Shown piece after piece: positions 443 to 40,004 of a stretch of DNA of 64,000 nucleotides. A model generated the notes under the pieces. It saw only the letters and a program-made list of their open reading frames with translations, did no database searches and was not told the DNA's origin. The position numbers and the translations under genes were made by a program. Source of the stretch: Persicaria tinctoria. Its lineage: Eukaryota > Streptophyta > Magnoliopsida > Caryophyllales > Polygonaceae. The stretch spans positions 36,881,115-36,945,114 of the forward strand of contig JBANSL010000012.1 in NCBI GenBank assembly GCA_037127255.1. Reading direction: 5' to 3'. Position 1 is the first letter of the stretch. Each line of letters opens with the position of its first letter.

Positions 443-1611
443 GTGAGGTACGCTCCTAGAGCTTTTGAGGCCAATCCCAAGGGGAAGACCGGACACATCA
501 CAGCCGTAAAACTCAAGATCGGGCACCAACTACGCGAGCCAGAAGTTGGAAAGCAGCAGAAAGAAGCTGAGAAACAACTCGACATCGACCAACAGCAACT
601 CGATGTCGACCAACGTCAAGTCAACATCAAGCAACAGCTTGGACAAGAATCGTCTGCACGACACTCCAACTCGACATCGAGGAAACTCGTCGATGTCGAG
701 CAGAATCAAGTCGACGTCGAGGAGAACCAAGTCAACACCGAGGATGCTGCAACACCTCCGACATCTGTTCTGGCTCCAAACCAGAAAAAGAAGTTGTCTT
801 TCCCCACAAAATCTCCAAAGGATCCAGCAGAGAAGAAATTCCAGCGCTTCATCAAGATGCTTCAAAGGCTTAATGTCACCATACCCTTCACAGAAGCTCT
901 TAATGAGATGCCATTCTATGTCAAATTCCTTAAGGAGATTCTGAGCAAGAAGCGATCAATGGCTGAGATCGCAGAGGAGTGCAGCCATATGGACATACTT
1001 GAGAAAAGGCCAGATCTAGATAAGTTTGCTATGACCATTGGATTTGGTCAATATAAATTTAATGCATTATGTGATCTTGGAGCTAGTGTAAGTATAATGC
1101 CTCTGTCAATATGGTCCAAGATTAAGATAGGTGCCCTAGAGCCTGTGGATGCTAAGCTTTATATGGAAAACAACATGGTGGTCATCCCAACAGGCATGGT
1201 GGACAATGTACCGGTGCAAGTAGGTAAGTTCTTTGTCCCTTCTGATTTTCTAGTTATTGATATGGCGAAGGACCCTTCATGGTGACGGTGGATGCCAACA
1301 TAAGCGTAAGGAAGGGAGTGCTCACCTTAAACATCAGCGATGAGGTAATTGAGTATTCCTTTAATAAAACTGAAAGGCATACAGCTCCCATAGAAGAGGT
1401 AAAGTCTATATTAGCTGGTTACATTACTTGCGGGGAGCCTAAGGTAAGAAATATGACTCCCGAAGAGCTGGAAAAGAGGGATATGGAAGCCCAGGTGGAA
1501 GAGATCTTGGCCATCCTATACGAAGAAGCAGAGAATCCACTCGACATAGACAAACGTACGTCGATTTGGACTAACTATTTTTCGGATGCCTTGCCAGGTC
1601 TTATGATGTGA
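443..1611 (+). pseudogene. Gypsy aspartic protease (retropepsin) region, frameshifted
   Basis: Two overlapping frames (443-1285 and 1279-1611) together make a plant Gypsy protease region. Frame one has a Gln-rich linker of palindrome-coded heptads (residues about 46-100), then a KLSFPTKSP/KKFQRFIKMLQRL segment common before protease, then ALCDLGASVSIMP. This is the active-site motif in the plant Gypsy form DLGAS. The flap and hydrophobic strands follow up to VIDMAKDP. The expected second motif, ILGRPF, is missing: the sequence jumps from MAKDP to FMVTVDANISVRKGVLTL in another frame. This fits a small deletion of about 20 bp around 1272, possibly through a GACCC repeat. The enzyme would be inactive. 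Reverse transcriptase, RNase H and integrase core do not follow. Confidence 0.85.
578..722. repeat. Palindrome array TCGAYRTCGA, 21-bp phased, within the protease ORF
   Basis: About five copies of TCGACATCGA/TCGATGTCGA/TCGACGTCGA lie in the gag-pol linker. Where adjacent copies can be paired the spacer is 11 bp, giving a 21-bp period. The reading frame is therefore kept, and the array encodes a 7-residue repeat (QLDIDQQ, QLDVDQR, QVNIKQQ, then VDVEQNQ, VDVEENQ). The same motif in non-coding parts of the window has a 19-20-bp period. Confidence 0.8.
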
Positions 1612-2276: not shown

Positions 2277-3380
2277 TTGCATCACATATCCTTCAACCCC
2301 CATCCCCTACTTTACCACCATTCTAAGGCCTTCCACAGCCCCATCCTCACCCTCAAACCACCCCCAAACGTCACTCCAAAGCAGCCCCTCAATCCCTCTC
2401 AAACAAGCTCCATTTGGAATTGTCTCTACAAAGGCCACGTCTCGGTAAAACACGATTTCCCGCTTCGTTTGACCTCCAATTGCCAAGATCTGCCCCAGTC
2501 CGCGACCAGGACTTCAAGAGCTACAAATCTAGTACACGCACGTTCCCAGAAGCCAAGCGAATCGACAAGAAATCGATATTCTTTTTTGACTGATCTGTTG
2601 CTCCAGAAACTGACCAAGACCTCCCGACCTCTCGGAATTCTCGTCGCTGATCCTCTTGCTCGAGCTCGGGTCCGAGCATACCATCTTAAGTATGGGGTCA
2701 ATATCGACCAAGAGATATCGACGGGCCTAGAAAACAACTCGATATCGACCACCACAAGTCGATATCGACCTACCCATGTCGAGCTGACCCCACCAGTAGT
2801 TGAGCAGAGGAATATCGAGCAACCTAACTCGATATCAAGTCAGGATACTCGATATCGACCAAACCTCATCGAGTCGACTCCACCTGTTGAGCAGAAGCCA
2901 CCAGAAGTCGAGCCAGGCAACTCGATATTGAGTAATCTTGCTCAATATCGACCAACCCAAATTGACAAGTCTCCCTCAAATTCGAATGAGATCCGACCTG
3001 AAGCAAACAACTCAACATCGAGTAATATTACTCGAAATCGACCAAGCACTGAGATCCCCAAATCAGATTCTGCGAAGGTAAGCCAAGGTATGTATCTTTC
3101 TTCTCCTATTTTAATTAAAGATTTATCTATACGTGGGAGAGGTTTGCCTTGGTATGTACGATTATGTAGGATTTCCAATGATGAGCCTAAGGAGTATGAA
3201 GTTGGAGACAAGCTCTATGTTTCTAAATCAAATGATCATTGGTTTCCTAACAAATTCAACAAGAAGAAGATGGGGCCTTTCACCGTGAACAAGATCCATT
3301 CAGGCGGACTGCAGCTGATGGATAAGAATGGAGTCCTATTCGAAGCCCAAGCTACATGGGCCCTGCAAATGCCACCTTGA
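2277..3380 (+). pseudogene. Gypsy integrase C-terminal region fused to palindrome-coded sequence
   Basis: This is an open frame of 367 codons. Only about the last 70 residues are recognisable: EYEVGDKLYVSKSNDHWFPN then KKKMGPFTVNKIHSGGLQLMDKNG. This matches the SH3-like C-terminal domain of plant Gypsy integrases (VG..V....SRL.LFPGKL...W.GPF.V). No HHCC or DD35E core is present, so the strand-transfer part of integrase is gone. Residues 140-260 come from 20-bp phased palindromes. Because 20 is not a multiple of three, successive motifs are read in different frames (SIST, then SRYRP), so this stretch was probably not selected as protein. The first 55 codons are probably fortuitous. The region after the stop, including AAGTCGGCCTAGCGACTATA, recurs after the ORF of element A at 32815. 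Confidence 0.65.
2697..3043. repeat. Palindrome array, 20-bp phased (internal region of element X)
   Basis: Repeated TCGATATCGA and one-base variants (TCGATATCAA, TCGATATTGA, TCAATATCGA, TCGAAATCGA). Measured pairs mostly have a 10-bp spacer: TCGATATCGA-N10-TCGATATCGA at 2740-2770, and the same again near 2830, 2860, 2920 and 3010. The spacers differ in sequence, so this is not a simple tandem satellite. Confidence 0.8.
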
Positions 3381-3921
3381 GCTTCATGGAGAAAGTCGGC
3401 CTAGCGACTATAAAGTCTAGAGCTTGTAAATAGACATTTATTTTTGGACTCTTGGACATTGTTGCTTTTGTTTGTTTTTGGTTTTGAACTTTTAGGTTTT
3501 TCTATTGCGGGTATTTCTTTTCTAACGAATCTTGCAGGGAAGAAAAAGCTGCAGCTTTACTCGACATCGAGTAAGCTACTCGAAATCGACCACACATCTC
3601 GAGCAAAAAGGAGCATGTGGTTGAGAAGGATCACCCTGGAGGCAACAAGTTACTCGATCTCGAGTAGACTTGGTCGACATCGACCAATCTCCTCGAAGTC
3701 GACCAGCCTTGCCGATTTCGACCAGCTCTGCAGCAATATTACACTCGATTTTCAACGTCCTTCACACATGTCTAGTGAGTTTCTTTCTTTACCCTTATTT
3801 TTTATACAGTGAGAACACTGTAATGTTTAAGTATGGAGTGAAGGAAGGGCTTACTTTGTGCATATTTGATATATTTGACATTATTTGTGCATTATTTCTT
3901 GAGTTGCTTATACATGGCTAC
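3381..3921 (+). other. 3' non-coding region of Gypsy element X, first part
   Basis: Runs from the integrase stop to the CACTA insertion. It matches 32815-33180 of element A closely (GGAGAAAGTCGGCCTAGCG; TAGAGCTTGTAAATAGAC; ACACTGTAATGTTTAAGTAT). A pyrimidine tract followed by CTTGCAG at about 3531-3537 resembles a 3' splice site, and element A has TTTTTCAG at the same place (about 32958). The segment 3561-3722 holds palindromes with 9-10-bp spacers, and these are absent from the corresponding part of element A. No credible ORF is present. Confidence 0.65.
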
Positions 3922-10819: not shown

Positions 10820-10918
10820 GAATTGGTAAATAAAGAGCGTCCATTCCGGGGTTCGAACCGGGGACCTCTGGGTATTACCCACAAGTCCTTTCCGGTGAGC
10901 CATTCCGTAATGGTTTTT
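10820..10918 (-). mobile_element. tRNA-derived SINE / tRNA retropseudogene, 99 bp, 15-bp TSD
   Basis: Perfect 15-bp duplications CCCACCTTTAACCTT lie at 10805-10819 and 10919-10933. On the minus strand the insert carries an A-box-like TGGCTCACCGG and a B-box-like GGTTCGAACCCC about 45 bp apart, the internal RNA polymerase III promoter of a tRNA. The empty site is present in elements A (about 33990) and B (about 25890). The insert ends CTCTTTATTTACCAATTC rather than in a clear poly-A. It is too imperfect at the acceptor stem to be a working tRNA gene, and target-primed retroposition explains the duplication. Confidence 0.8.
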
Positions 10919-11495
10919 CCCACCTTTAACCTTTTACCAATCTACTCCTTATTGAGCTTAAATTAAAGTCCTCTTGATTATTAATGCTTTGTCACGAACG
11001 ATTGTTTTTGCATAACCCTCCTTTTGTGAGTAGATGTTGCTTTTTATTGCACATGCATGGATTTGTGACATTAGTACTTTTTCGAGGATGGTAATTGATT
11101 GCAGGGTTATATGGCAATGAATCTAAGATGTTGAGAGTTTTTATTTCTTCCCCTGAATGACAAATAACAGTATTGCTTGAGGACAAGCAAGCTTAAGTAT
11201 AAGGTGTTTGTTGTGAGCCTAATTCGCCATGTTTTATAGTTACTTTTATATCGATTTCTGCATGCATTTCATACATTTGGGCTAGAATAGCACAAAATCT
11301 ATCTAGTTTATGCTTATTTGTCAAATTATGGAATCTACACTAGTTTCTGTTTAATTTCGCAGAAATCGAAGCAATTTACAACAGTTATGAGAAGAGAAGA
11401 AAAGATCAAAGTCAACTACAGAAGTCTAAAGTCAAGGAGTAGCGGAACCAGGACAAATCGAGCTGGAAAGAAGAAAACCGAGTTAAAACACACAA

Positions 11496-11832
11496 CTCGA
11501 TATCGAGTACTGCAAGTCGATATCGAGTAAGGTCAAGTCGATTTCCATTGAGTTGCCAGAATCGAGCAGAGCTGAAAGACTTAGTCGATATCGAGTTGTT
11601 TTACTCGATATCGAGTAACCCATATCGAGCTGGAGCACTAGGAATCAACGAGCAAGCTAGAGCTGAGACATTCAAGTCGATATCGAGGAACTTTACTCGA
11701 TATCGAGTAAAAACTTAGTCGATTTGCCTTCCTGGAGCCGAGATCGACGAAGAAGCTGAAGACGGAGAAACGTTGGTCGATATCGAGAAAACTACTTGAT
11801 ATCAAGGAAACCCCCAGTAGCCGACATCGAGT
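11496..11832. repeat. Palindrome doublets, U3 side of LTR X
   Basis: Three clear doublets of TCGATATCGA with exactly 10-bp spacers (11497-11526; about 11585-11615; about 11679-11709), plus a weaker pair near 11780 (TCGATATCGA then TTGATATCAA). The spacer sequences differ. The full form is ACTCGATATCGAGT, a 14-bp perfect dyad. Confidence 0.85.
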
Positions 11833-12504
11833 AATCCGTATCTTGTTAAGATTCTATCCAAAGTCCAATGGAGATATTTTCGAGATCAAATTCCATCAAG
11901 ATCTATCCAGTGCTATCAAGAGGAGAAGATATTTATCCACAATTAGTTCTGATTCCCTTTAGAGATTTATTTATTTATTTCCATGTTTTAAATCTTTAGA
12001 TAAAAGATAGATAGATATAGATTTAGATATAGTTTTCTTTCCTAATTAGAGAGGGAATGAAGGCTATAAATAAAGCCTATAGGACTGGTTTTTATTCATT
12101 CATTCATACATTAAATTCAATTTTCAGAAGAAGTAGTTACATAGAGAGAGAAGTCGAGTAGGAGAGTAGAGAGCTTAGGCCGAAAGCAAGTTGGAGTTGT
12201 CGAGAGACGTTTTGGCTTCGATCGGTTGTAAGTTTTATTTAGTTTATTTAATGCAATTTAGTTTTTTACTGAAATCTTTGATGAGTTTATTTATGATGAA
12301 GAGCGAAAGCCTCTATCTTCCCATTTGTTAATAACGAGAGTTATTTGATGAAAAGGATGATCTTTTATGCCTTTATGTGTTACTTTGCATGATTATCGTT
12401 GTGGTGTTGAAACCTTGATTTTGGAAGTCTTTAGTTTATTGATTTATTTCATAAAAAATCGTGTTTTGTGTTATGAAAAGCTTCGAATTTTAGTTTTTGA
12501 GTTA

Positions 12505-12669
12505 GTCGATTTCGAGCAGGTTTTGTCGATCTCGAGTTGTTTACTCGATGTCGAGTTGATTTGGTCGAGGTCGAGTTACTTGCTAAGTTTTGCTTTCTGT
12601 TGAGTCGATTTCGTGCACCGTTACTCGATTTGTTTACTCGATATCGAGCAACAGTGGTCGATATCGACC
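12505..12669. repeat. Palindrome doublets, transcribed side of LTR X
   Basis: Three doublets, each with a 10-bp spacer: TCGATTTCGA/TCGATCTCGA, TCGATGTCGA/TCGAGGTCGA and TCGATATCGA/TCGATATCGA. The central two bases vary freely while TCGA half-sites are kept. Confidence 0.85.
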
Positions 12670-12904
12670 AAAAAATTTGTCTTTGCTTTCTTTTCCGCTT
12701 TTCTATGTTATTTCTGTTTTTTTGTCTATTTTTCTTGTGAGATTTGCTGCTACCTGAGAACCGCTAACGTGCTTCCTCGAGGATCGATCTTGACTTCCCG
12801 CTGCTGCATCAGGAGGAGGTCTTGTAATCATTTGCAAGGGACGGAATCCGGTTTTCTTTACTTTATTTATATTTTGAATTGCATGTCTCGATTTCCTCCT
12901 TACA

Positions 12905-13235
12905 ACACATTACTCAATATCGACGACACTCGTCGACATTGAGTGCTATGGTGGTCGACATCGAGTACATCTACTCGACATCGACTGTCTTTGCTTCGTT
13001 CTTTGCATTTATGTTGCATTTTGTTTTGCAGTTTAGTCGATAGTGTGGTCGAGATCGAGTACCCTACTCGATATCGAGTACTTCCTGAGTCGATTTCAAG
13101 AGTTTTTTGGACTGAAAAGGCGGGCGCTGACACGCTTCCTCATGGATCGATGCTGACTGCCTTCTACTACAACGTGAGGAAGTCTTGTATTTATTTGCTT
13201 GGACAGGAGTTGGTTTGCTTTTATTAGTTTTATTT
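12905..13235 (+). mobile_element. Tail of an older Gypsy LTR interrupted by element X
   Basis: After the end of LTR X a second LTR 3' portion follows. It has palindromes at 12915-13093 (doublet spacers 9, 10 and 12 bp), then GCTGACACGCTTCCTCATGG-ATCGATGCTGACTGCC and GTTTGCTTTTATTAG, in the same order as the last 400 bp of the other LTRs. Its upstream part is not adjacent. This fits element X having inserted into a related LTR, or an end-to-end recombination join. ACACA at 12905-12909 could be the target duplication of X, but its left partner is outside the window. Confidence 0.6.
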
Positions 13236-16302: not shown

Positions 16303-17280
16303 TCATTCAGACATTGTTAATGCCCTTAAAAACAAATCAAATTCTTGTGCCCAACCAAAATTTGAATGAACACTAAACATGAAAAACATTGCAATTACGG
16401 ATACCTTGTAGTGAAGCTTTGAGACTTCTCTACTTACATGAGGTTGATCTTTTCCGGGGGATATGTAAGACCACCAACACAGTTCCGTTGGCGTCTTGTA
16501 GAAGTAATGCTCCCAGGGATCCAAATATTCACCATAATCCACAAAAGTCTTAGAAATTTCATTACCTTGGCCAGGATCCACATAAATCGGCTCTGGAATT
16601 GGTGCTTTGATAGGCGCAATTGAGATGCTTGCCTCAGATGAATTAGGCACAAAAACACATGGATCCTCAAAACGTATTAGGGTGTCAGATGAAGTAGGAG
16701 GCATAACATATGATGTAGAAATAGGCATATCCGATGATATGGAAGATAACATAACATATGATGGAGAAAAAGCCATAATAGATAATGGAGAAGAAGGCAT
16801 AACATATGAAACCTCATGCGTTGACTCATGCGATTCCATGTCAAGAAACACTAGATCTTCTACTTCATCATCCAAAAGGATATCATCACCTTTGATAAGC
16901 TCTTCCACGTCTTCTTCAAATGTGTCTGAGATGTTTGCAGAGACGGCGGGCGCCAATTTTGGAATGGCGAGCGCCGCTTCTGCAGAAAAACCATCCTTCT
17001 TGTTTTGCTCGGCAACTTTCTTGCGTTCTTCCTCCAATGCTTTGTCAGCCAAGTCGAGGAAAAGATCACACAGTCCCAACAGTCCTGGGTTCCACAAACC
17101 ATCGTCACCCATATCGTCGATAAGCTCTCGCGTGTCAGGACTTACGCCTTCATAAATGCAAAGAACCATATCTCGCTCACTATCATGGATACCCCGCGAA
17201 GTACGTTCATCCACTAAGTCTTTCACTCTTGTGAGGTAATGGTGAAAATATTCTCCTTGGTCCTGATATAATCTCAACAT
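16303..17280 (-). pseudogene. Gag-like ORF of the minus-strand Gypsy element (325 codons, pol absent)
   Basis: The start MLRLYQDQGEYFHHYLTRVKDLVDE resembles the plant Retrotrans_gag pattern (QD..E.FH.YL.RFKDL...), followed by gag-like helices to about residue 100. The middle (residues 100-230) is acidic and Ser/Met/Pro-rich with SYVMPSS/SYVMLSS/SYVMPPT repeats. I recognise nothing in the C-terminus. No zinc knuckle, protease or RT follows, so this is a short gag-only derivative. It lies just inside a primer site at 17384-17401, in the expected order LTR, primer site, gag. A GGCGCC unit at 16944-16990 is in frame and codes SAEAALAIPKLAPAVSA. Whether it is translated is unknown. Confidence 0.6.

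Positions 17281-19206: not shown

Positions 19207-19285
<79 letters not shown>
19057..19285. repeat. G-run and (GTT)n(ATT)n microsatellite
   Basis: A run of 25 G at 19101-19125. A compound GTT then ATT microsatellite runs from about 19188 to 19285 and ends exactly at the start of LTR B. Poly-Leu/Ile frames over it are artefacts. Confidence 0.95.
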
Positions 19286-19286
<1 letters not shown>

Positions 19287-20966
19287 GATGTGCGCTCAAT
19301 TTTCCATGTTTTTCGCTTATATCTATTTCGATTTTTGTCCACATATTATATTTCTGGGTCAGAATAGGGCAGGAATTGTATAGTTTATGTTTATTTGTCA
19401 TATATAGAGATCTACACAAGTTTTTGTTTAATATCAAAGAAATCGGAGCATTTTCGGAGCAATTCGGAGAAGAGGAAAAGAAGTTGTCAAGCACTCGATG
19501 TCTACTGAAGAGTCACTCGACATCAACCAAATGACTCGACATCGAGTGAAAGCAAGCCAACATATCGAGCAAGAAGCAAATGAGAAGACGCCACTCGACG
19601 TGAGGAGTCGATATCGAGTCCATGACTCGATATTGAGTGAAGAGCACTCGATCCCCTCCACAGGAGAGTCGATGACGAGTAAAGCACAACTCGAGACATT
19701 GAAGACGACTCGATGTCGAGTCCCTTACTCGATGTCGAGTGAGATTCCAGTACCCTATCCGACGCTGAGCCGAGTCCGAATCCGAGTGTGACTTTGCTTC
19801 TACGTGAAGAAAATGATATTTTATCTACATTAGTTGGACATCTATCATATTTGGTGAATTCCTAATTTACCTAGGTATTTTCCATTTGTTATATTTTATT
19901 TAATTAAGGAACATTTTATCTTTTAGATAGATATAGATATAGATAGATACATTGCTCTCATTGGCTAGCAAGGATTGAACCTTATAAATAAAGCCCTAAG
20001 GCTGAGTTTCTATTCATTCCAGCTCACAAGCAATTGTGAAAACACTAGTTAGGCAATATAGGGAGTATAGAGAGAGAGTTTGGCTGAGTGGCTTGTGAAG
20101 AGCGAAATTGACTGTGGCTTGTTCGCTTGTAAGTTCTCTTTTTAGTTTAATTCAAGTTATTTCCTTTATGAATATGATGTTTCCTATTGTGATGAGGTGC
20201 GAGTAGTCACTCTACTTCTAGGGTTGGGGTGAGCCTAACGGTAGCCATCTAAGTTTATGATCAAAGGTAAAATCTTTATTGCGATTTCATCTTCTGTACT
20301 TTTTTTGCATGATTCTTCTACGACAGTAGTAGGTAAATCCTTATTTGTATTATTGAAGTAAAACTGATCTTAATATGAATTTGGATTAATTATCAGAAAG
20401 GGTAGTAACAATAACTATTTATGCGAAAGCCTCTATATTCTTAACTATTAATAAAGAAGGTTATTTGATGAAAAGGCATAATGTTTCATAACATTGAATT
20501 TAAAAATAACAATTTGCGATATTTTCTGTTCATCGATCTTCTTGTTCATCCTTATATTTTTTGGACGTTCTTTTCCGACCCAAACTCTTATTTTCTCCAC
20601 GGCTACGTTTTTCTGCACACTCACACTCGACATCGAGTCCACGGACTCGACATCGAGTCACCACTGAGTCGACATCGATGCTCCCCACTCGAGGTCGAGT
20701 CTTCTCTCTTCTGTTATGCAGGTTTTATAGGTCATCGACTGTTCGAGTCGACATCGACCTATCTGAGTCGACGTCGAGTCAACTTCTAGTCGACATCAAA
20801 GGCTGATTTTGAGATACCAAATTGGAAAGCGCGGACACCCTTCCTCGTGGATTCGATCTTGACCATTCCAATACAGCGGGAAGAAGTTTTGAATTTATTT
20901 GCGAAGGCTGGAGACTTGTTTGATTTATATATTTATATTTATTAGACTTGATTTCCTCCATTAACA
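19286..20966 (+). mobile_element. LTR of Gypsy family B (left copy, about 1.68 kb)
   Basis: Starts TGATGTGCGCTCAATTTTCC and ends CTCCATTAACA, the same ends as the split copy at 26178-29619. TATA box CTTATAAATAAAG lies at 19981. Palindromes of the TCGACATCGA/TCGATGTCGA type occur 240-490 bp upstream (19494-19741) and 640-820 bp downstream (20626-20802; spacers 10, 12, 10 and 10). ATTAT stands on both sides (19281-19285, 20967-20971), but as both flanks are ATT microsatellite this is weak evidence of a target duplication. No primer site follows. Confidence 0.85.
20626..20802. repeat. Palindrome doublets, transcribed side of LTR B
   Basis: TCGACATCGA-N10-TCGACATCGA, then after 12 bp TCGACATCGA-N10-TCGAGGTCGA, and later TCGACATCGA-N10-TCGACGTCGA. 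Family B prefers a central AC/GT (SalI-like GTCGAC) over the AT of families X and A, so the centre drifts while the half-sites and spacing persist. Confidence 0.85.
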
Positions 20967-24666: not shown

Positions 24667-26177
24667 GAGGCCATGAAAGCAATTAGGAAGAAAATCGACT
24701 GAAGATGTAAACGAAATTTTAGGTGCGGAAAGCTGCGAAGAAGACTCGACATCGACCCTGTGAGTCGATATCGACTGATGATGTCAAGTCAATATGATGT
24801 GATCGAGTAGGAATCACCCTGGGCATTGTAACCACTAGGAATCAAGTGAGTCCAGTCAATATCGACTGACCCACTCAATATCGACTCACGCTGGAGAGCA
24901 CTTATTTTGAGTTTCAGGCCCATGTCTAATAAGTTTCTTCATTTACCCATTTTTTCTATACAAAGAGGACACTGTAATCTTTTACGCATGGGGTTGGGGA
25001 AAGGACTACTTTTATGATACTTATGAATATTTCTCCACATTCCTCTATACATGGTTACTTGGGATATGTTCATTCATCTATATGCTTCATATTTTTATCC
25101 AAAGTTTATTTTCATCACCCCCATTGAAACTTTTTTATTAGTGTCATGGAATCTTTAATGGAACTCGACGATGCAATATTGGATTCATTAAGAGATATAG
25201 CATGAAATTGCCTAGTAAAGGGAAGTCTCAGTGAAGTGCAATATTTCTTGAAAACCATGAAAGAAGGTAAACTTGATGTTGCTTTTGACATGTTGCACAA
25301 CAACAGGATGGAGACTATATTTTCCAAATAATGCTCATTTTTATATTCCTAGTCATACCTATACCTATTTGCATCACAGAAGCCATATATGAGCCTTACA
25401 TATCGTTACATCATTTTTGCTCCACATATACTAAATATTGCTCATTCTTTACCTTATTTTATTATCCGAGGATTATGTTGAGAATGGATGTTACTTTTGG
25501 GGATATTTTATAGTGAATTGTGTTGTATCATTATTTTGGAGTTTGGCAGGAAATTGAAAGTTTATGGAACACTTAACGAGTGAAAGAAAATCTAGTCACC
25601 TCAAAAGATAAAGGTAGATCGATCCTGCATGCGTTAAGATGTTAGTTCTGCAGTATAGGACACACATTTGAGGAGTCCAAAACACTAAGTATCCGGGGCC
25701 ATTCATGACACCCATATTTGCGAATCGCGAGAAGGGAGTGCTGAGGTTAGAGAGGTAAAAGAATTATAGTGAAAAAAGCATTGAGCGATGAGAGTAAGGT
25801 GAGAAATCAAATGAAGAAGGAATGTGGTATGGGAAGTTTGGAAATTACTCCATTTCCCCGAATCATTAGCACCACATGGCCAAATATATCCCACCTTTAG
25901 CCTTTTACCAATCTACTCCTTTGTGACTTAAATAATGTCCTCTTGATTACTATTGCTTTGTCGCAGGAAAAAATGTTTTTGCATAACCCTTCTTTTGTGT
26001 GCAAAACTGCTTTTATTCACATGCATGGATATTTGGTGACATTAGTACCTTTTTGAGGATGGTAATTGATTGCAGGGTTATATAAGAATGAATCTTTGAT
26101 GTTGAGAGTTTGATTTCTTCCTCTGGATAACCAATAAAAGTGTTGCTTGAGGACAAGCAAGCTTAAGTATGGGGTGT
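24667..26177 (+). other. Internal and 3' non-coding region of Gypsy element B, with polypurine tract
   Basis: 24667-24900 ('segment Z') carries palindromes (24746-24887) and recurs at 29739-29959 with about 16 differences in 220 bp. The rest matches elements X and A: ACACTGTAATCTTTTACGCA; the AGTATCCGGGG/CATTCATGACACCCAT block (25690-25720); and GCTTGAGGACAAGCAAGC-TTAAGTATGGGG (26148-26174) immediately before LTR B. No coding frame of substance; gag and pol are absent. Confidence 0.75.
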
Positions 26178-29100
26178 TGATGTGCGCTGAATTTTCCATG
26201 TTTTTCGTTTACATGTATTTCGATTTCTATCCACATTTTATATTTCTAGGTTAGAATAGTTTAGGAATTGTGTACTTTATGTTTATTTGTCATATATAGA
26301 GATCTACAAAAAAGTTTTTGTTTAATACCGCAGAAATCGGAGCATTTTCGGAACAATTCGGAGAAGAGGAAAATAAGTTGCCAAGCACTCGACGTCTACT
26401 AAAGAGTCACTTGGCATCGCCCAAGTGACTCGACATCAAGTGAAATCACGCCAACATATCGAGCCAGAAGCAAAGGAGAAGATACCACTCGATGTGTGTT
26501 AGGGGAGGAAAATCAAGTACGAAATAAATATCATATAAATTCCAAATCGACTCCCTGAACCACGCAAATAAAAATTACAAGACTTCCTCATGTTTCAGTG
26601 GAAGGGAATCAGGATCATGTCCATGAGGAAGCGTGTCAGCGCTCGCCTTTCAAGCTCCTATATCCTCTGGTATCAACCAGCAGAAGTCCTTGACGTCGAG
26701 TAGAATTACTCGATGTCGACTACCTTAGTCGAGTAAACCTGCAAAGCTGCACAACAGAAGCAAAAACAAGCAATGTCGAGTAGGGCAGTACTCGACGTCG
26801 GCCAGTGTACTCAACGTCGACAAGAAAGTCGTCGAGATCGAGTGCTCAGTGCAGCGTAAAACGTAGAGAAATAACGCAGAAACGAAAATAAACACAGAAT
26901 TGGTGGGATGTAATTCAATAATATAAAAAAGCTTCCAGAATTGGGGTTTCAATGCCACAACGTTAACCATATAAGAATAATGCTAAAGGTATAAAATATC
27001 ATCCTTTTTCATCAAATAATTGTCGTTATTAACAAATAGGAATATAGAGGCTTTCCCATAAACCCTAATTGTTACTAACCCTTTTCACATAATTAATCCA
27101 AATTTGCATTAAGATCACTTTTGCTTCAATAACACAAATAAGTATCACCTTCGACTGTCGCAGAAGAATCATGCTTATAGGGATAGAAGATGAAATCGCA
27201 TCAAAAGTTGTACCTTTATCGCATTACCTTACATGGCTACCGTCGGGCTCACCTCGGCCCTAGAAGTTGGGTGACTACTCGCTCTTCATCACAAAAACAC
27301 ACATCAATAATTTAAAGGAACTAAATTGCATTAAATCAAAAACAAAGTTTACAACCGATCGATGCCAAATCCGCTCTCGTCTTTCCAACTTTCTACTCGG
27401 TTAAGCTCCAAATAAAACTCTAAATTGCCTAACTAGTGTTTTCTCAATTGCTTGAGAATGAAATTAATTCCTAAAACCAACCCCTAGGGCCTTATTTATA
27501 GTATTCAATCCTCGCTATCCAAGGAAAGAATATTCTATCTATATCTAAAACTATCTATCTAAAGCTTAATGATAAAACTTGGTAAATAAAATAAATAAAT
27601 CTCTAAGGTAAGTAAGACTAGGGTGGATAAATATCTTCAATCTTGATAGATCTTCACGTGTCTTGATAGATTTCCCACGCGACTTCGCTTGCAAGTAAAC
27701 ACACACTCGGACCTCCACTCGATTTCGACTCGGAGAGGTGTGGGGAAGTACTCGACATCGACAAGAGTAGTCAACGTCGAGTAGAATTCTTCTTCTCCTC
27801 GGAACGTTCTCGAACTCGACTAGGATTCGAACTCTCGACGGGTACTCGACATCGAGTAAGTCCTCGACCGCGAGTAGAATTTGTCGTCTCGAGTGGTTCT
27901 GTACTCGGCTTGTGCTCGATCTCGTGTTCTGGAGCTGAGGTCAACCAAGGTACTCGACATCGACTAGGTGTAGTCGACGTCGACTAGTCTTGTCGAGTGC
28001 TTTCTTCATTGTTTTCTGCTCGACTTGCCCTGGTTCAGCTGCTACTCGACTTTGGACATTCTGGATTAGACCTCGAGCTCTCCCATGGTTTCCTCCCTTC
28101 TTCGAATTGTTGTAGAATGCCTCCATTTATGCAAAATTAAATAGAAACTAGTGTAGACTCCATATTTTGAAATATTAAGCATAACTACACAAATTCCTAA
28201 TAATCTCATCCTAGAATGCAAATATAACATTAAAATTGGCATTAAAGATAGGCATAAAACATGTTGAAATAAGTGCACAACAACGTGAGGAGTCGATATC
28301 GAGTCCATGACTCAATATAGAGTGAAGACCACTCGTTCTCTTACACAAGAGAGCTGACATCGAGTAAAGTAGAACTGGAGACATTGAAGATGACTCGACG
28401 TCGAGTCCCTTACTCGATGTCGAGTGAGATTCCTGCACCCAATCCGACATTGAACCGAGTCCGAATCCGAGTGTGACTTTGCTTCTACATGAAGAAAATG
28501 ATATTTTATCTACATTAGTTGGACATCTATCCTATTTGGTGAATTCTTAATTTACCTAGGGATTTTCCATTTGTTGTATTTTATTAAATTAAGGAACATT
28601 TCATCTTTTAGATAGATATAGATATAGATAGATAGATTACTCTCCTTGGCTAGCAAGGATTGAGCCTTATAAATAAAGCCCTAGGAGCTGAGTTTTTATT
28701 CGTTCCAGCTCACAAGAAATTCTGAAAACACTAGTTAGGCAATAGAGAGAGAGAGAGAGAGAGAGAGAGAATTTGGCCGAGTGAGTTGTGAAGAGCAAAA
28801 GCGATTATGGCTTGTTCGGTTGTAAGTTGTCTTTTTAGTTTAATTCATGTTATTTCCTGTATGAATATGATATTTGCTATTGTGATGAGGCACGAGTAGT
28901 CACCCTACTTCTAGGGTTGGGGTTAGCCCGACGGTAGCCATGTAAGTTTATGCTAAAAGGTACAATCTTTATTGCGATTTCATCTTCTATCCTTATTTGC
29001 ATGATTCTTCTACGATAGTAGTAGGTAAATCATTATTTGTATTATTGAAGCAAAACTGATCTTAATATGAATTTGGATTAATTATAAAAAAGGGTAGTAA

Positions 29101-29959: not shown

Positions 29960-31919
29960 TGTTGTGAGCCTAATTTGCCATGTTTTATAGTTACTTTTAT
30001 ATCGTTTTCTGCATACATTTCATACATTAATTTGGGTTAGAATAATACAGAATCTGTGTAGTATATGTTTATTTGCAATATATGGAGGTCTACACAAGTT
30101 TTTGTTATATTTCGCAGAAATCGGACGCACTTTGGAGCTTAAAGAAAACTCATGGAGAAGCTAAGAATGGTGCAGCTGGAGAAAAGGCCATTTTTCGGCA
30201 TTCATCATTCTGAATCAAGCTTTGATGTCTTCATGAGAGTTGTATCCCTCGGAAAGAGCTTTCCAACGCATGGTCATATGCATCAATCCGACGAACGAGG
30301 ACTCGGTAAAATGCGTTTTAAGAACAAAGCAGAAAGTTGAGAGATTTACTCGATCTCGAGTACATTTACTCGATATCGACCCAAAGTGTCCGAGCACTGC
30401 CTGGTCGAAGACGGGCCAGGTCGAGGAACTGAAGGCAGAGCTACCCGACTTTAGAGAGTTACTCGATATCGAGTACTTTAGTCGATATCGACAAGATCTG
30501 AAGACCAGCCCGGAGTCGAGGAAGACCACCTGATCGAGAAGCCGAGGACGAGAACATGTCGGGTTACACTCTACACGAGATCGAGGACACTCCTTGAGAT
30601 CGAGGACATCAGAAGCACGCACCCGAGCATATCGAGGAAGAGCAACCCGAGATGCCGAGCCACTAAAGTCGAAGACATGATTTTACTCGAGATCAAGTAA
30701 GTCTCATCGAGATCGAGGAAACCTTCCAGAAGACGCGTAACGCAGTTTGAGCAATTCTACTCGGATTGAGATTTCTTGGGGCCGAAGATTGCCGAGTCTA
30801 TCCGATTCTATCAAGATCCATCATGGGAGAGAAGATTTATCCACTTGAAGACTTTTAGATATAATTTCTTTTTTAGATTTAATTCCTTTATTGCATTTAT
30901 TTATCTTTAATGTTTTAGATATAGATTTAGATATAGATATAGATATTCTATCCAATTCACAAGCTAGAGAAGTAGTTCACAGAGACAGTTTAGGAGTTAA
31001 GAGGTTTTAGGGTTTTGGCGTTCAACGAGAGTTGGATCGCCGGGATTGTAAAGTCTTTGAATTTAGTTTAATACAAGTTGTTATTTCCTTTCAATCGATG
31101 TCTGAGGTTGCGATGAAGCGCGAGTAGTCCACCCACTTCTAGGGTTGGGGCGAGTCCGATGTTAGCCATGCGTGTTTAAGGTAAAGATCCGACTTTTATC
31201 ATGTTTTGAGCATCTACTACTTGTTATGTGTTTATTACCGATCTAATGGAGGTCCATGCTAACAACTTGGATTGTAAACATAAAATCAGTAGAGATAATT
31301 AGGGTTTCTTGAAAGAGTTGTCTAATTGTTGGAAAAGGCGAAAGCTTGATCCTTTGATGCAATTCACATGATTATCTGTTTTATTTCTGCCTTATACATG
31401 CTTGGTTATCGTTGTTGCAAACCCAATCTTGGAAGTCTTTTACATACAGTTTAGTTCGAAATCCCAAAGCATTGGTCTTTGCTTTATTTCGTTTGAGTTT
31501 TCTGTCTTCCTCGATATCGAATAGCACTCCTCGATATCGAGTACTGATTCTCGATCCAGATCGTTGTAGCTTCTGTGTGCAGGTGATCGACAAGAGCCAA
31601 CCCGACGTCGACAAACTTCCTCGATCTCGAGTAAGTCTTACTCGATCTCGACCAAAATCGTCGGGAGCTGCTGCTGTGCTGTGTTCGACTTGTCCGATCT
31701 TCTGTCGACTAACCCTAGTCGAGATCGACAATCTTTGGTCGACTTTTGTCTATGAGATTTCTTTGCTGCCTAGGATCCGCTGACACGCTTCCTCGTGGAT
31801 CGATCCTGACTTCCCACTACTGCATCGGGAGGAAGTCTTGTAATTATTTGCAAGGGACGGAATCTGGTTTGCCTTATTTTATTTACATTCTATTTTGCAT
31901 ACTCGATTTCCTCCTTACA
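29960..31919 (+). mobile_element. 5' LTR of Gypsy element A (TATA box deleted)
   Basis: 1960 bp, TGTTGTGAGCC to CTCCTTACA, followed five bases later by a primer site. Palindromes lie at 30352-30722 (TCGATCTCGA-N10-TCGATATCGA; TCGATATCGA-N9-TCGATATCGA; several TCGAGATCGAG) and 31509-31742. A conserved block GGAAAGAGCTTTCCAACG plus CATATGCATCAATCC lies at 30251-30302. Compared with the 3' LTR, 63 bp including GGCTATAAATAAAG are missing at about 30953, and the break sits in a shared ATCC. The overall sequence is otherwise close to the 3' LTR. Confidence 0.9.
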
Positions 31920-31925
31920 AAAAAT

Positions 31926-31943
31926 TGGCGCCGTTGCCGGGGA
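31926..31943 (+). other. tRNA-Asp primer-binding site of element A
   Basis: TGGCGCCGTTGCCGGGGA, a perfect complement of the 3' end of plant tRNA-Asp. It begins six bases after the LTR end, as usual for Athila/Tat-type Gypsy elements. Confidence 0.93.
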
Positions 31944-32008: not shown

Positions 32009-32800
32009 ATGCAGGACACCTTCGAGTATTTTGAAAGGGAAAGAGCGAGACAGTATGGAAAAGAATTGGAATATTTGAGATGGCTATACATCGTTGATGA
32101 GGAGGCATGGCTTGAGGGTGTACGCGCATTTAGGAAGCTCCGGGATTTGTCAATATCACCGCCAGAAGCCCCAATCCTGCTAGAAGGAGAATCTGAACCT
32201 GAGGTCGACTTTGACCAACAGCTAGTCGATGTCGACCCATCTCCAATCGATATTGATCTATCTCTAGTCAATACCCAGGTATGTCCTTCCGCTATCTCAA
32301 TTCCAACTTTGTCCTCTGACTTTGAAAAACCATTTGAAGAACCTCTAGAGGAAGAAGAGCCAGAAAAGAAGAAGTTGGACGTCGTTGCCCATGTTGTTTC
32401 AAAGTCACTTTTGCCTTATAAGGTGAAGGCTATCCCCGACGATGTTGAGCAACCGATGTTCATATTCAAGTATGGGGTCCTTGCAAAGTGGCATAAAGCT
32501 CCGTACGATGAGGTGGAAATATCTCTTCCCACTCCACCGTTTTGCTGTGGTGGAGACACGCAAACAAATCAACCAATGGAGCGAAAGAGGTATGATTTTG
32601 AGGTATGCAAATTTCCTTTATATATTCCTTTATGCATGCCAGCTGGAGCCCAGGAAGATGGATGGGTGGAGCCATGGAGCGTCCACTCGGGGAGGTTTAA
32701 CCTTCTTCACATGATGCCCCCAGATGACATCCCACGCTTCCCACCACCAGAGGAACGACCAGATCCACCTATACCTCCGGACAAAGATGAGCCCGGCTAA
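32009..32800 (+). CDS. ORF of unknown function in a non-autonomous Gypsy element (263 aa)
   Basis: The only substantial intact ORF of element A, starting 65 bp after the primer site where gag would begin, and followed by the shared 3' region. Residues 1-65 are charged and helical in look (FERERARQYGKELEYLRWL). Residues 69-90 are palindrome-coded heptads (VDFDQQL VDVDPSP IDIDLSL) with 21-bp period. Residues 110-125 are Glu/Lys-rich. The C-terminal half (YKVKAIPDDVEQPMFIFKYG to DDIPRFPPPEERP) is Pro/aromatic-rich with no CCHC, protease or RT motif. I do not recognise it. It could be a remnant gag N-terminus fused to an env-position protein, or a captured gene. Intactness suggests recent activity or chance. 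Confidence 0.5.
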   Translation: MQDTFEYFERERARQYGKELEYLRWLYIVDEEAWLEGVRAFRKLRDLSISPPEAPILLEGESEPEVDFDQQLVDVDPSPIDIDLSLVNTQVCPSAISIPTLSSDFEKPFEEPLEEEEPEKKKLDVVAHVVSKSLLPYKVKAIPDDVEQPMFIFKYGVLAKWHKAPYDEVEISLPTPPFCCGGDTQTNQPMERKRYDFEVCKFPLYIPLCMPAGAQEDGWVEPWSVHSGRFNLLHMMPPDDIPRFPPPEERPDPPIPPDKDEPG

Positions 32801-34280
32801 AGCTAAATGGAGAAAGTCGGCCTAGCGACTATAAAATCTAGAGCTTGTAAATAGACATTTATATTTTGGGACCTTTTGGACATTATTGCTTTTGTTTGTT
32901 TTTTTGGTTTTGAACTTTTAGTTTTTCTATTGTGGGTATTTCTGTTCTATATTTTTCAGGTCCATGGGGATAGAAGCAAGCTAAATCAGATTCGGCCTAG
33001 GCATTTACACTCGATATTATGAAGCCATGCACACCTGTCTAGTGAGTTTCTTTGTTTACCCTTGTTTTTATACAGTGAGGACACTGTAATGTTTAAGTAT
33101 GGGGTGGGGGAAGGGCTTACTTTGTGAATATTTGACATTATGTGTGCATATTTTTTTATTGCTTATACATGGCTATTTTGGAATTCATTATTGATTTATG
33201 GGCTTACATGCATGTTTTCCAAAATTTGAAAAAATGACCCCCATTTAAAATTTTGATTAGTGTCATGGAAGCTTATATTGAACTCGACGATGCAAAATTG
33301 GATTCATTAGAGATATAGCATGAAATTGCCTAGTAAAGGGAAGTCACAATGTAGTGCATATTTTCTTGAAAACCATGAAAGGAGGAAAAATTTGATGTTG
33401 CTTTTGACATATTGCTTGATAAGAGGATGGAGGACTTTATATTTCCATATAATGTGCTCATTGTTATATCCTATCCTTACCTATGCTTATGCATCACAAA
33501 AGTCATATATATGCCTTATTTCATATTATGCTCCACATGTTCTAAATATTTTCCATTCTTTACCTTATTTCCTATCCGGGGATTATGTTGAGAATGATGT
33601 CACATTATGGAGATTATTATATGGTTGTTGTGTTGTTATTATCATTATTTGGAGTTGGGTTGGAAATTGTTTGAAATATATGGAAAATTTAATGAGTGAA
33701 AGAAAATCCGATCACCTCAGAAGATAAAGGTAGATCGACCCTACTTACTGACTTAGTTCAGTGAGATGGGACACACATGTGAGGAGTCCAAAACACTAAG
33801 TATCCGGGGCCATTCATGACACCCGTATTTGTGACTCGCAAGAAGGCAGTGCTGAGGTTAGAGAGGTAAAAGCATTATTATTGAGAAAAGCATTATGGAA
33901 GGTGATGAATCAAAGGAAGAAGGGATGTGGTTAAGAAAGTTTGGAAATACTCCATTTTCTCGGATCGTTAGCACCACATGGCCAAAAACTACCCACCTTT
34001 AGCCTTTTACCAATCTACTCCTTATTGAGCTTAAATTAAAGTCCTCTTGATTATTAATGTTTTGTCACGTATGAATGATTTTGCATAACCCTCCTTTTGT
34101 GAGTAGATGTTGCTTTTTATTGCACATGCATGAATTTGTGACAGTAGTACCTTTTCGAGGATGGTAATTGATTGCAGGGTTATATGACAATGAATCTAAG
34201 ATGTTGAGAGTTTGAATTCTTCCCCTGAATGACAACTAAAAGTATTGCTTGAGGACAAGCAAACTTAAGTATGGGGTGTT
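32801..34280 (+). other. 3' non-coding region and polypurine tract of element A
   Basis: Same order as in elements X and B: GGAGAAAGTCGGCCTAGCG (32811); a pyrimidine tract ending TTTTTCAG (about 32958); ACACTGTAATGTTTAAGTAT (33081); a long conserved non-coding stretch; AGTATCCGGGG/CATTCATGACACCC (33798-33824); and GCTTGAGGACAAGCAAAC-TTAAGTATGGGG (about 34247-34276) ahead of the 3' LTR. This is the empty-site reference for the CACTA, solo LTR and SINE insertions of element X. The 135-codon frame at 33320 is not recognisable. Confidence 0.75.
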
Positions 34281-35914
34281 TGTTGTGAGCCTAATTTGCC
34301 ATGTTTTATAGTTACTTTTATATAGTTTTCTGCATGCATTTCATGCATTTGGGTTAGAATAATACAGAATATGTGTAGTATATGTTTATTTGCAATATAT
34401 GGAGGTCTACACAAGTTTTTGTTATATTTCGCAGAAATCGGACGCACTTTGGAGCTTAAAGAAAACTCATGGAGAAGCTAAGAATGGTGCAACCGGAGAA
34501 AATGCCATTTTTCTGCATTTATCATTCTGAATCAAGCTTTAATGTCTTCATGATAGTTGTAGCCCTCGGAAAGAGCTTTCCAACGCATGGTCATATGCGT
34601 CAATCCGACAAACGAGGACTCGGGAAAGTGCATTTTAAGAACAGAGCAAAAAGCTGAGAGATTTACTCGATCTCGAGTACATTTCCTCGATATCGACCCA
34701 AAGTGTCCGAGCAGTGCCTGGTTGAGGACGGGCCAGGTCGAGGAACTGAAGGCAGAGCTACCCGACTCCAGAGAGTTACCCGATATCGAGTACTTTACTC
34801 GATATCGGTAAGATCTGAAGACCAGCCCGGAGTCGAGGAAGACCACCTGATCGAGAAGCCGAGGACGAGAACATGTCGGGTTACACTCTACTCGAGATCG
34901 AGGACACTCCTCAAGATCGAGGACATCAGAAACACGCACCCGAGCATGTCGAGGAAGAGCAACCCGAGATGTCGAGCCACTGAAGTCGACGACATGATTT
35001 TACTCGAGATCGAGTAAGTCTCATCGAGATCGAAGAAACCTTCCAGAAGACGCGTAACGCGGTTTGCGCAATTCTACTCGGATTGAGATTCCTTGGGGCC
35101 GAAGATTGCCGATTCTATCAAGATCCATAATGGGAGAAAAGATTTATCCACTTGAAGACTTTTAGATATAATTTCCTTTTTAGATTTAATTCCCTTATTG
35201 CATTTATTTATCTTTAATGTTTTAGATATAGATTTAGATATAGATATAGATATTCTATCCTTGAATAGCAAGGAGTAGAAGGCTATAAATAAAGCCCATG
35301 GGGCTGATTTTAGAAAAAAATCCAATTCACAAGCTAGAGAAGTAGTTCACAGAGACGGTTTAGGAGTTAAGAGGTTTTAGGGTTTTGGCGTTCAACGAGA
35401 GTTGGATCGCCGGGATTGTAAAGTCTTTGAATTTAGTTTAATACAAGTTGTTATTTCCTTTTAATCGATGTCTGAGGTTGCGATGAAGCGCGAGTAGTCC
35501 ACCCACTTCTAGGGTTGGGGCGAGTCCGACGTTAGCCATGCGTGTTTAAGGTAAAGATCCGACTTTTATCATGTTTTGAGCATCCACTACTTGTTATGTG
35601 TTTATTACCCATCTAATGGAGGTCCATGCTAACAACATGGATTGTAAACATAAAATCAGTAGAGATAATTAGGGTTTCTTGAAAGAGTTGTCTAATTATT
35701 GGAAAAGGCGAAAGCTTGATCCTTTGATGCAATTCACATGATTATCTGTTTTATTTCTGCCTTATACATGCTTGGTTATCGTTGTTGCAAACCCAAATCT
35801 TGGAAGTATTTTACATAAAGTTTAGTTCGAAATCCCAAAGCATTTGTCTTTACTTTATTTCGTTTTAGTTTTCTGTCTTCCTCGATATCGAATAGCACTC
35901 CTCGATATCGAGTA
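34281..35914 (+). mobile_element. 3' LTR of element A, truncated, with intact TATA
   Basis: Starts TGTTGTGAGCC and follows the 5' LTR to a palindrome at about 35914 (TCGATATCGAGTAC), where it joins a different gag sequence. It lacks the last 375 bp or so (U5). TATA box GCTATAAATAAAG lies at 35282. Palindromes at 34666-35035 and 35881-35914. The breakpoint falls at or in a palindrome copy, so recombination between palindromes of two elements could have made the join. Confidence 0.85.
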
Positions 35915-35919
35915 CCTTT

Positions 35920-37984: not shown

Positions 37985-38775
37985 TTATTCAATCCCCAAT
38001 GACCTTATTTATAGTATTCAATCTCCGCTCTCTAAGGAAATAATACTCTATCTATATCTAAAATTATCTATCTAAAGATAAATGATAAAACTTTAAAGAA
38101 AAACAAATAAATCTCTAATGTAAGTCTAACTAAAGTGGATAAATATCTTCCATCTTGATAGATCTTCACATGTAGTTGACAATGCCTTTGCTTGCAAGTA
38201 TCCCACAATTGCTCGGACTCCAATCGTTCTTGAATCAGATTGATCACTAGGAGTACTCGACATTGAGTAAACTACTCGACGTTGAGTAGTTCTTCTTCTT
38301 TTTGGATTCCTACTCGAGCTTGGCTACAATCTGGTGCTCGACTGGTACTCGACATTGAGTACACTCCTCGATGTCGACTAGAATTGTGCTCTCGTGTGGG
38401 TTGCTCGTCGATCTCGTGTGATGAAGCTGAAGTCGACCACATAGTACTCGATATGGACTAGTTTGGTCGATATCGACTAGTCTTGTCGAGTGCTTCCTTT
38501 CTTCTCTTCTGCTCGATATGGACTGGTTCAGCTCCTGTTTGACCTCAAACTTTCTGTATTGGACGTCGAGCTTTTCCATGGTTTCCTTCCTTTCTCTGAA
38601 TTGCTTTAAACTGCCTCGATTTCTGCGAAATTAAACAGAAACTAGTGTAGACTACATAATTTGACAAATAAGCATAAACTACATAGATTATGTACTATTA
38701 ACCCAATAATATGAAATGTATGCAGAAATCGATATAAAACTTAATATAAAACATCGCAAAATAGGCTCACATCAA
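37985..38775 (-). mobile_element. Gypsy LTR fragment (start half)
   Basis: On the minus strand it starts near GATGTGAGCCTATTTTGCG (38774) and proceeds through palindromes (38253-38530; doublets with 9-bp spacers such as TCGACATTGA-N9-TCGACGTTGA) to the TATA region (TACTATAAATAAGG, about 38012). It matches 27480-28282 in order and much of its sequence. The downstream half is missing. Confidence 0.8.
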
Positions 38776-40004
38776 CCGGCTATCACTTGCTACCCCCATT
38801 TGCAAAAGTAGCAAATGACACCCCTGCTATTTTGAACCCCCGTGCCAAAGTATATCAAAAGTGGTCTTTCCTTTGCCATTAATTCATCCTTCCTTCTGCA
38901 TTTTGCTTTCGTACAGTGAGCCATTAATTCGAACAGTTCCACATTTCCTTCATCAGATTTTTCTTCCTTAGCCATTAATTCGCATTATTAAAAAGAATTA
39001 TATATTCGCTTACATATAGAGTGCGTACGCTGATTTAATAAATAAATAAAAAAAGTGTGAGTGTGCATTGCGAGTGTGCAAATCCGCACATTCACAATGC
39101 GCCACAAATCTTGCAAGACGCCGTATGTTGACAGTGTATATAGTAAGCCCGTAATAATAATAACTGAGTCACCGTAATAATTTATGGTGGTCAACGATAA
39201 AATTATTAAAAATTAGTGTAGACTTCTCAAATATTTATCCAGTTCCATTATCATGTATTATGTATAGTGTTCGATCTCTCCAAAATTTGACTCATTCCCT
39301 CGACACGTTTACAAGATATAATTCTTCCAAGTTCCAACTCAACCGGTGAATCTGCTTTTAGGTAACCAATTGAATTGACCATTGCATAATTTGCATCTGT
39401 CAAGGAAGTTTCCTCGCCCAAACATTATTGCACGTTATTAAAATGACATTCAAAAGGTCTCCCTTGCCAATATAACTTGACTCTTGTAAAAATGTTTATT
39501 CTAATTTTACATGCTCTTTTTTTCCGTAATTTATAGGAGTAAGGTTTATCGCCTTTTTTAAGTTAGGATATGTAACTTGGCTTTTCTCTTTAATCGACAA
39601 CGGATCGTGGTTGTGTTTGTAGTCTTCGAAGATCTTTCATCTAGGTGGATGCGATTCACACATCCTCAAGAGTCGCTCTTCTTGGTTGGAGTACTGTCTT
39701 GAGTCTTTGCATTCTCCCACGTTCTTGACACTCGTGGCGCGTACGTATTGATTCTCCTTCGATTTCTCTGCTAGCTGACAACTTGTATGGGCTTGTTGGG
39801 TTTTTTATTTCTTCTCTGATGTTTTGTGTTATTATGTATTATTTATATGGATGGATTTCCGTTTGCCTACTCGAGTATCAGGTATGTCTGAACTCGAATT
39901 TTTACCTAATAAAAAAAATTAGACTTTGATTGGAGGTAATTACTTGTTTTCCTAGAATTTGAAAAAATATAATCAAGCATGATAGCTAGTGATCTTTCAC
40001 ATGG
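38776..40004. other. AT-rich intergenic DNA with a possible LINE 3'-end scrap
   Basis: No ORF of interest. 39540-39928 reads like a retroposon tail: a T-rich non-coding stretch ending CTAATAAAAAAAATT. I could not find a coding part or duplication. The rest is featureless. Confidence 0.3.

Follow-up and report, generated by a model that had tools for sequence, protein, structure and literature searches.

The 64-kb window of Persicaria tinctoria DNA analysed in this work (the whole stretch of 64,000 nucleotides from contig JBANSL010000012.1) contained several long terminal repeat (LTR) retrotransposon pieces, named X, A, B and, on the reverse strand, R1 and R2, in which the ten-base palindrome TCGANNTCGA recurred in pairs and short ladders. 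LTRs started with TGTTGTGAGCC or TGATGTGCGC and ended with CTCCTTACA (X and B1) or CTCCATTAA (A), and the TATA box motif TATAAATAAAGCC was located downstream of the arrays in the unique 3′ (U3) part of X, A1, A2 and B2; no match to it was found in LTR B1 and R2. LTR B1 did not have the TATA stretch present in its partner B2 (35284), with a short deletion visible by eye at about 30950. Besides LTRs with a TATA box, the carriers presented a primer binding site (PBS) and gag and protease of one lineage; we take the protease and the PBS to be of the Athila type, the PBS TTGGCGCCGTTGCCGGGG being presumably of the Athila/Tat type. A preliminary description of this DNA had assigned the motif to several LTR families. 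X, A, B and the reverse LTRs do carry it, but they look like diverged members of a single Athila-like group. The internal part displayed the order gag plus protease, linker and a module termed GPF, with no polymerase between, and in the window copy this frame was broken by an insert. Within the LTR the motif occupied both the transcribed part and the U3 stretch that precedes the TATA box, and outside it gag, the linker between protease and GPF, and the 3′ untranslated part (Table 1).

Exact copies of TCGANNTCGA amounted to 78 in the window, as compared with a mean of 0.75 and a maximum of 3 in 20 first-order Markov simulations, and 77 additional sites presented one mismatch (155 in total vs. 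18.5 under the same model). The motif was thus far above chance, as previously stated, whereas the earlier estimate of about a hundred copies fell between the 78 exact sites and the 145 sites with at most one mismatch within element DNA, without coinciding with either figure. When inverted arms of four bases around a centre of two were compared, TCGA was by far the most frequent in element DNA (78, the runner-up reaching 8). All 78 exact sites were found in the 21,764 bp of Athila-like element DNA, whose limits were drawn by hand from a self-BLAST of the window, and none in the remaining 42,236 bp. Central dinucleotides drifted as described (TA 26, CA 17, TG 9, GA 7, TC 6, CG 4, others 9), and CpG transitions were found in 34 of 66 one-mismatch sites, indicating a fast decay of CpG.

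Start-to-start steps between exact sites in the window were 19 (10 cases), 20 (18), 21 (3) and 22 bp (1); 31 of the 43 exact-site pairs lying 11–60 bp apart fell at 19–21 bp, vs. means of 2.7, 2.4 and 2.3 (maximum 10) when positions were jittered by 20, 40 and 80 bp, respectively (1000 runs for each width), which corroborated the pairing. With one mismatch allowed, non-coding steps were 19 (23), 20 (22), 21 (3) and 22 bp (6) and coding steps 19 (1), 20 (4) and 21 bp (4), the sites forming runs of two (34), three (9) and four (4), with 33 solitary ones. With 10.5 bp per helical turn, a step of 19–20 bp covers about 1.8–1.9 turns, and the location on one DNA face that had been claimed for the centres holds nearly, as an approximation. 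The stretch named in the preliminary description held the three U3 doublets of LTR X, a lone exact site at 11777 and the sites after the TATA box (12506–12574 and 12638–12667). The restriction of the pattern to non-coding copies, in contrast, had to be abandoned, since coding copies belong to the same pattern and provide the strongest evidence.

Throughout the host genome (1,680,257,829 bp) the doublet TCGANNTCGA-N9-10-TCGANNTCGA occurred 161,195 times, vs. 4 for the reversed-pattern control, and ACTCGATATCGAGTA was found 15,938 times in forward and 15,858 times in reverse orientation (control, 0). Twenty systematic 10-kb stretches from contigs C1 and C2 contained 117 sites (0–2 in five first-order Markov runs), and of the 51 pairs separated by no more than 60 bp, 47 fell at 19–21 bp; the sharp peak on which the preliminary description had staked the spacing was therefore present in the window and in the genome sample alike. 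Higher-order distance peaks of the sample were located at around 93 and 104 bp and accompanied by side peaks some 20 bp away. Sites were clustered, with 109 of the 117 in four stretches, eight in five others and none in 11; in the four site-rich stretches, to which inspection was limited, open reading frames (ORFs) resembled by eye gag-like, protease and linker proteins. Loci L009–L028 and the coding linkers also displayed a higher-order doublet period, of some 93 bp (31 linker codons), 104 bp or 112 bp.

Coding copies in the window were read in frames 0, 1 and 2. A genome search with the protein P0001 (42% identical across 61% of the window ORF) gave at least 203 matches (95 of 25,039 candidates scored), and the linker pool comprised 35 members (12 loci, 20 short stretches, L013, L015 and the window), all with the GPF module; the linker was open over 80 codons or more in 26 of them, 22 of which were retained as independent. 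A total of 125 exact sites was counted in these 22 linkers, along with 51 doublets at 19–21 bp, vs. 7.8 sites (maximum 15) and 0.1 doublets (maximum 2) after synonymous codon resampling that maintained the same proteins (200 times). Twenty-five doublets had a step of 19 bp (frames 0 then 1), 24 a step of 20 bp (0 then 2) and two a step of 20 bp with frames 1 then 0; beyond these 51, one had a step of 22 bp. Because the frame switches between steps 19 and 20, the peptide of the second member differs though the DNA doublet is kept. In one alignment column some elements had the codon GTC where others had ACT, GGT or AGT, the DNA site being retained. Fourfold third positions were identical at 1807 of 1957 (92%) in motif slots, defined as those in which 40% or more of the rows carried the motif, as compared with 3878 of 5597 (69%) in other linker codons and 4618 of 6372 (72%) in the GPF module. 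The loss of sites upon resampling and the identity of third positions in the slots indicated a constraint on the nucleic acid and not on the protein. The linker of P0001 presented eight codon-compatible sites, which used three frames and made up four pairs with a step of exactly 20 nt (0.003 in shuffles). For P0005 there were four codon-compatible pairs at 21, for P0002 two; among 119 control proteins (53,111 aa), two pairs at 21 and none at 19–20 were present.

From the window and the genome sample together, 195 sites were gathered, and the profile of the 127 independent ones gave the consensus YTASTCGA-NN-TCGASTAR, of about 18 bp and hence longer than the ten-base core. Its correlation with its own reverse complement was 0.98, a symmetry that fits a dimer on duplex DNA and not single-strand recognition. 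Positions −1 and +10 were C or G in 94–95% of the sites, with nearly equal shares of both bases, and T was found at −3 in 78% and A at +12 in 75%. The choice of C or G at −1/+10 was complementary in 58 sites vs. 56.9 expected, and the centres were palindromic less often than expected (23 vs. 41.6). Judging from sequence, each site is composed of two independent half-sites. A preference for pyrimidine–purine centres, seen in 47 of 64 sites in the window but in 49 of 127 in the wider set, was dropped. As regards whole doublets, a set of 112 independent ones (from 243) was gathered from the window and loci L001–L061. Their outermost half-sites tended to differ, with CTCGA at one end and GTCGA at the other (69 of the 99 doublets whose four flanks were all C or G; binomial p 0.0001, for one of six half-site pairs compared), which lends the doublet a polarity.

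We consider it likely that the doublets are double-stranded-DNA binding sites for a putative sequence-specific dimeric protein. Such a protein would read the palindrome as two half-sites, leaving the centre unread; two to four dimers would line up at intervals of 19–20 bp, or of 21 bp within gag, almost sharing a helix face and touching each other to give chains of two to four, and adjacent dimers would probably bind together. Ladders in U3, in the transcribed LTR and in coding DNA would let one factor cover the whole element. Location in U3, ahead of the TATA box, suggests transcription control, and the spread across gag, linker and 3′ part suggests, by analogy with the VANC systems discussed below, that coverage of the whole element is intended. 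The outcome would be transcriptional activation or protection from silencing, and not repression, since selection on the lineage is not expected to keep purely silencing sites. The GPF module is one possible element-encoded binder, the one ground for this being its position after the linker. Cooperative reading of DNA sites, as put forward in the preliminary description, was maintained as the best explanation in view of the symmetry, the sharp spacing, the retention of the motif between diverging spacers and the coding constraint, the protein, its cooperativity, its origin and its effect being conjectural.

Several observations weigh against the reading of the doublets as DNA-binding sites. 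Part of them would suit a signal at the RNA level, with the palindromes acting in element RNA as hairpins, dimerisation kissing loops, packaging sites or small-RNA triggers, a role reportedly proposed for the palindromes of Sireviruses. Arrays folded strongly as predicted RNA (z −6.65, −6.11 and −3.41), which is expected from any palindromes; positions −3 and +12 covaried (94 of 127 sites vs. 76.7 expected; 41 of 64 vs. 30.8 in the window); doublet centres were complementary in 47 of 112 cases vs. 17.8 expected, with 13 TC/GA pairs vs. one each of TC/TC and GA/GA; and sites were present at both RNA ends and in the coding part. The centres were, however, also identical in excess (42 of 112 vs. 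14.6), perhaps because of flavours proper to single elements, and CA/CA and TG/TG doublets (5 and 6) exceeded CA/TG (3). Within sites, the C/G flanks did not covary in the doublet set either (57 and 53 of 112 vs. 52.1 and 53.8), in addition to the deficit of palindromic centres mentioned above. Moreover, pairing of the outer flanks of doublets was avoided (32 of 112 vs. 52.6 expected, 0 of 5000 shuffles being as low), the inner flanks pairing in 57 of 112 vs. 53.4. More weight was given to the flank result because a stem would need to run through the flanks, and an RNA-level signal was considered unlikely. The remaining points against DNA-binding sites concern the coding evidence: the linkers share ancestry and are hence only partly independent; the slots of the fourfold test were selected by presence of the motif itself; P0001 and P0005 are known as protein only, their sites being codon-compatible ones; four of seven proteins (P0003, P0004, P0006 and P0007) had no codon-compatible pairs; and the 119 controls were drawn by a protease-bearing query, so that many may lack the linker. 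To these is added that CpGs changed between LTR pairs at 4 of 68 in the motif, 4 of 20 near it and 32 of 216 elsewhere, a weak test because the pairs of one insertion decay neutrally.

Mutational growth without selection on the motif, in which tandem duplication or gene conversion would spread a unit of 20 bp or of 90–112 bp, could account for the units of ~90, ~93 and 112 bp, for the short tandem arrays of 19–22 bp present in places and for those doublets that are copies of one another; the ~93-bp linker units and the ~112-bp units of one LTR do look duplicated. Nevertheless, identity between units was 88–100% inside the motif (84/96, 87/96, 80/82, 24/24 and 44/48) and as low as 37–57% outside, which is not the likeness of a satellite or minisatellite, and Tandem Repeats Finder gave at the sites only arrays of about two to four copies. 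Furthermore, third positions in the motif slots drift less than their neighbours despite the fast decay of CpG, and the frame of the second member changes with the step. Ten of 78 array-region pairs beat the best of 30 shuffles when the motif and 3 bp were masked (expectation, two or three), and known homologues made up at least two of these ten (X/R1 and R1/R2); arrays of different LTRs or regions thus seem to have little in common except the motif. Growth alone was regarded as very improbable, and the preliminary description had already argued against simple satellite expansion, a view borne out by a motif that is kept while the spacers diverge, though some units look duplicated. If repeated peptides of the gag-protease polyprotein (SIS...RxRP, VDVD heptads) were selected and the palindromes followed from them, the mostly 21-bp, in-frame step of gag, which yields a heptad repeat, would be explained; yet the same motif occurs in non-coding LTR DNA, three reading frames are used, synonymous resampling removes 94% of the sites and the slot peptides vary (V vs. 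T, G or S in the same alignment column), so that this explanation is scarcely credible. It could also be the host that reads the array, as a silencing or insulator signal, in order to methylate or package elements that cannot lose it. The CpG transitions in decayed sites are as expected of methylated DNA, but purely harmful sites would be expected to be lost, and yet coding DNA keeps them against synonymous drift; we grant such a host role very little chance.

With regard to the carriers, P0001 and open frames as long as 1091 codons likewise had GPF placed after protease and linker without an intervening polymerase. The aspartic-protease match of P0001 was slightly below curated cut-offs, and the P0001 search gave at least 3518 matching proteins (7988 candidates scored), with many named plants among the matches listed. 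The GPF module, which we take to resemble integrase C-terminal domains, had no real match in Pfam or PDB, and structure models of the gag-like ORF and of GPF (predicted local distance difference test, pLDDT, 37.6 and 46.5, respectively) were too poor for use. A Retrotrans_gag match was obtained in ORF 36293–36784, and one window ORF matched reverse transcriptase. No match was found in the viral collection with the doublet pattern and two protein queries, in the prokaryote collection with the 23-base LTR-start pattern, or in Rfam and tRNA scans of the window. In the region of loci L037–L039 (G000, contig C1, 1.797–1.821 Mb), similar protease-linker-GPF copies followed each other at about 6.7-kb steps, at least four in number and each with a 1091-codon open frame. 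A-type LTRs were flanked by (TTA)n runs (19210–19286, 20967–21010; 29620–29729), as if they had been inserted in, or had seeded, a microsatellite. A 452-bp tandem duplication (17202–18104, 99% identical) extended into an ORF without Pfam match, and an insert of ~100 bp with GGTTCGAACC at 10820–10917, where ARAGORN found no tRNA, is presumably like a tRNA-derived short element. Two ORFs at 61566–63999 matched the oligopeptide transporter family (Pfam OPT) and represented the only likely host gene in a scan of 10 of the 24 listed window ORFs.

Table 1. Coordinates, within the window, of the LTRs, palindrome sites and related features.
Feature	Position	Strand	Details
LTR X	11209..12909	+	starts TGTTGTGAGCC, ends CTCCTTACA; from self-BLAST and LTR start/end patterns; carries the doublets of the preliminary description
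Polypurine tract (PPT)-side stretch	11179-11206		immediately before LTR X
LTR X, U3 doublet 1	11497..11526		11497/11517, step 20; third member 11538, one mismatch
LTR X, U3 doublet 2	11585..11614		11585/11605, step 20; third member 11625, one mismatch
LTR X, U3 doublet 3	11677..11706		11677/11697, step 20
LTR X, U3 lone exact site	11777..11786		decayed partner TTGATATCAA 19 bp further, two mismatches
LTR X, TATA box motif TATAAATAAAGCC	12065..12077	+	downstream of the U3 array
Further TATAAATAAAGCC boxes	19983, 28668, 35284	+	
One-mismatch copy of TATAAATAAAGCC	27500	-	
LTR X, transcribed part, four-site ladder	12506..12574		12506/12526/12545/12565; steps 20, 19, 20
LTR X, transcribed part, doublet	12638..12667		12638/12658, step 20
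Ladder just past the end of LTR X	12914..13077		12914, 12933 (one mismatch each), 12955/12975; 13049/13068
Coding ladders, gag-protease ORF 440-1285	579..720	+	579/600; 671/690/711; frames 0 and 1
Coding doublets of linker, ORF 2256-3380	2739..3041	+	four ~91-bp units; frames 0 then 2; step 20; one mismatch in 4 of 8 members
GPF module	3078..3377	+	conserved, C-terminal, after the linker
Ladders of 3′ untranslated internal part	3561..3721		3561/3580; 3654/3674/3693/3712, the last with one mismatch
LTR A1	19286..20965	+	U3 array 19495-19738; transcribed-part array 20627-20799
Internal-region doublets before LTR A2	24746..24884		24746/24765; 24856/24875, one mismatch each
Reverse element piece R1	26542..28200	-	sites 26690-26841 and 27719-27983
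LTR B1	29960..31921	+	U3 array 30350-30716 (112-bp period); doublet 31511/31531; sites 31602-31651, 31719
Primer binding site TTGGCGCCGTTGCCGGGG	31925..31942	+	adjoins LTR B1
Coding ladder, gag-like ORF 31964-32800	32205..32256	+	steps 21, 21; frame 1; outer two with one mismatch
LTR B2	34280..35915	+	91.5% identical to B1 across the aligned part
Reverse LTR piece R2	37994..38776	-	sites 38257-38476

Repeated protein-binding boxes in the LTR or leader are represented by the Su(Hw) sites of Drosophila gypsy and the BII boxes of Tnt1, which are few in number and restricted to one location, and are not known to form palindromic ladders or to occur in coding DNA. Closer to the present array are the repeated motifs described for Sireviruses (Ty1/copia), which are palindromic and CpG-bearing, with at least eight copies per element, and cluster 200–400 bp into the LTR, upstream of the TATA box; the linker holds extra clusters, as does the start of the ENV gene in two elements, and regulatory factors have been suggested for the motifs (PMC2829016). 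Palindromy, location in the LTR, the cluster upstream of the TATA box and a number of at least eight copies are shared with the doublets. The carriers here, by contrast, are presumably Ty3/Athila-like, from their PBS, gag and protease, and the core is TCGA-NN-TCGA instead of CGG-CCG, from which Tnd-1 also deviates (PMC2829016). In addition, the section on the Sirevirus motifs describes no strict pairing or ladders at 19–21 bp for them (PMC2829016). The present copies also occur in the transcribed LTR part and, using three frames, in the coding DNA of gag and linker.

The targets of VANC in VANDAL DNA transposons constitute, according to the part of the source considered, a short motif dense over one transposon group and rare elsewhere, to which an element-encoded protein binds, removing silencing, the density of the motif being said to matter for binding (PMC5735166). 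The doublets resemble these targets in such a distribution; they differ in being palindromic and in having many coding copies, whereas the VANC motifs, YAGTATTAY, are found in one orientation, mainly in non-coding DNA, and have spread via tandem repeats (PMC5735166). As far as can be judged from the motifs themselves, the doublet array resembles Sirevirus motifs and VANC arrays and belongs to neither. A literature search with the motif string and the word retrotransposon gave no match, and among the matches listed for the string alone, or for TCGACATCGA and TCGATGTCGA, none dealt with transposons by title; one paper (PMC11302176) was set aside, its sole match to "palindrom" being in the reference list. 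In the titles and beginnings of abstracts among the matches, which included few subscription journals, no report of such overprinting of coding DNA was found. Palindromic arrays in plant LTR elements were already known, the new parts being the phased pairing and the overprinting; to our knowledge, fixed-spacing DNA sites that overprint protein genes, with the frame switching at 19 or 20 bp, have not been described.

A further, tentative possibility, which we hold to be rather doubtful, is that the ~160,000 phased doublets constitute a genome-wide operator code that the retrotransposon group has laid across its own genes, in non-coding DNA as well as in every frame of coding DNA, read by a dedicated putative factor, either element-encoded or captured from the host, that would coat the element every ~20 bp and block silencing, as an LTR-element counterpart of the VANC system. 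LTR elements represent much of plant genomes, and both the escape of some of them from silencing and the proteins that bind them are mostly open questions, for which the doublets offer an explicit and abundant candidate cis code.
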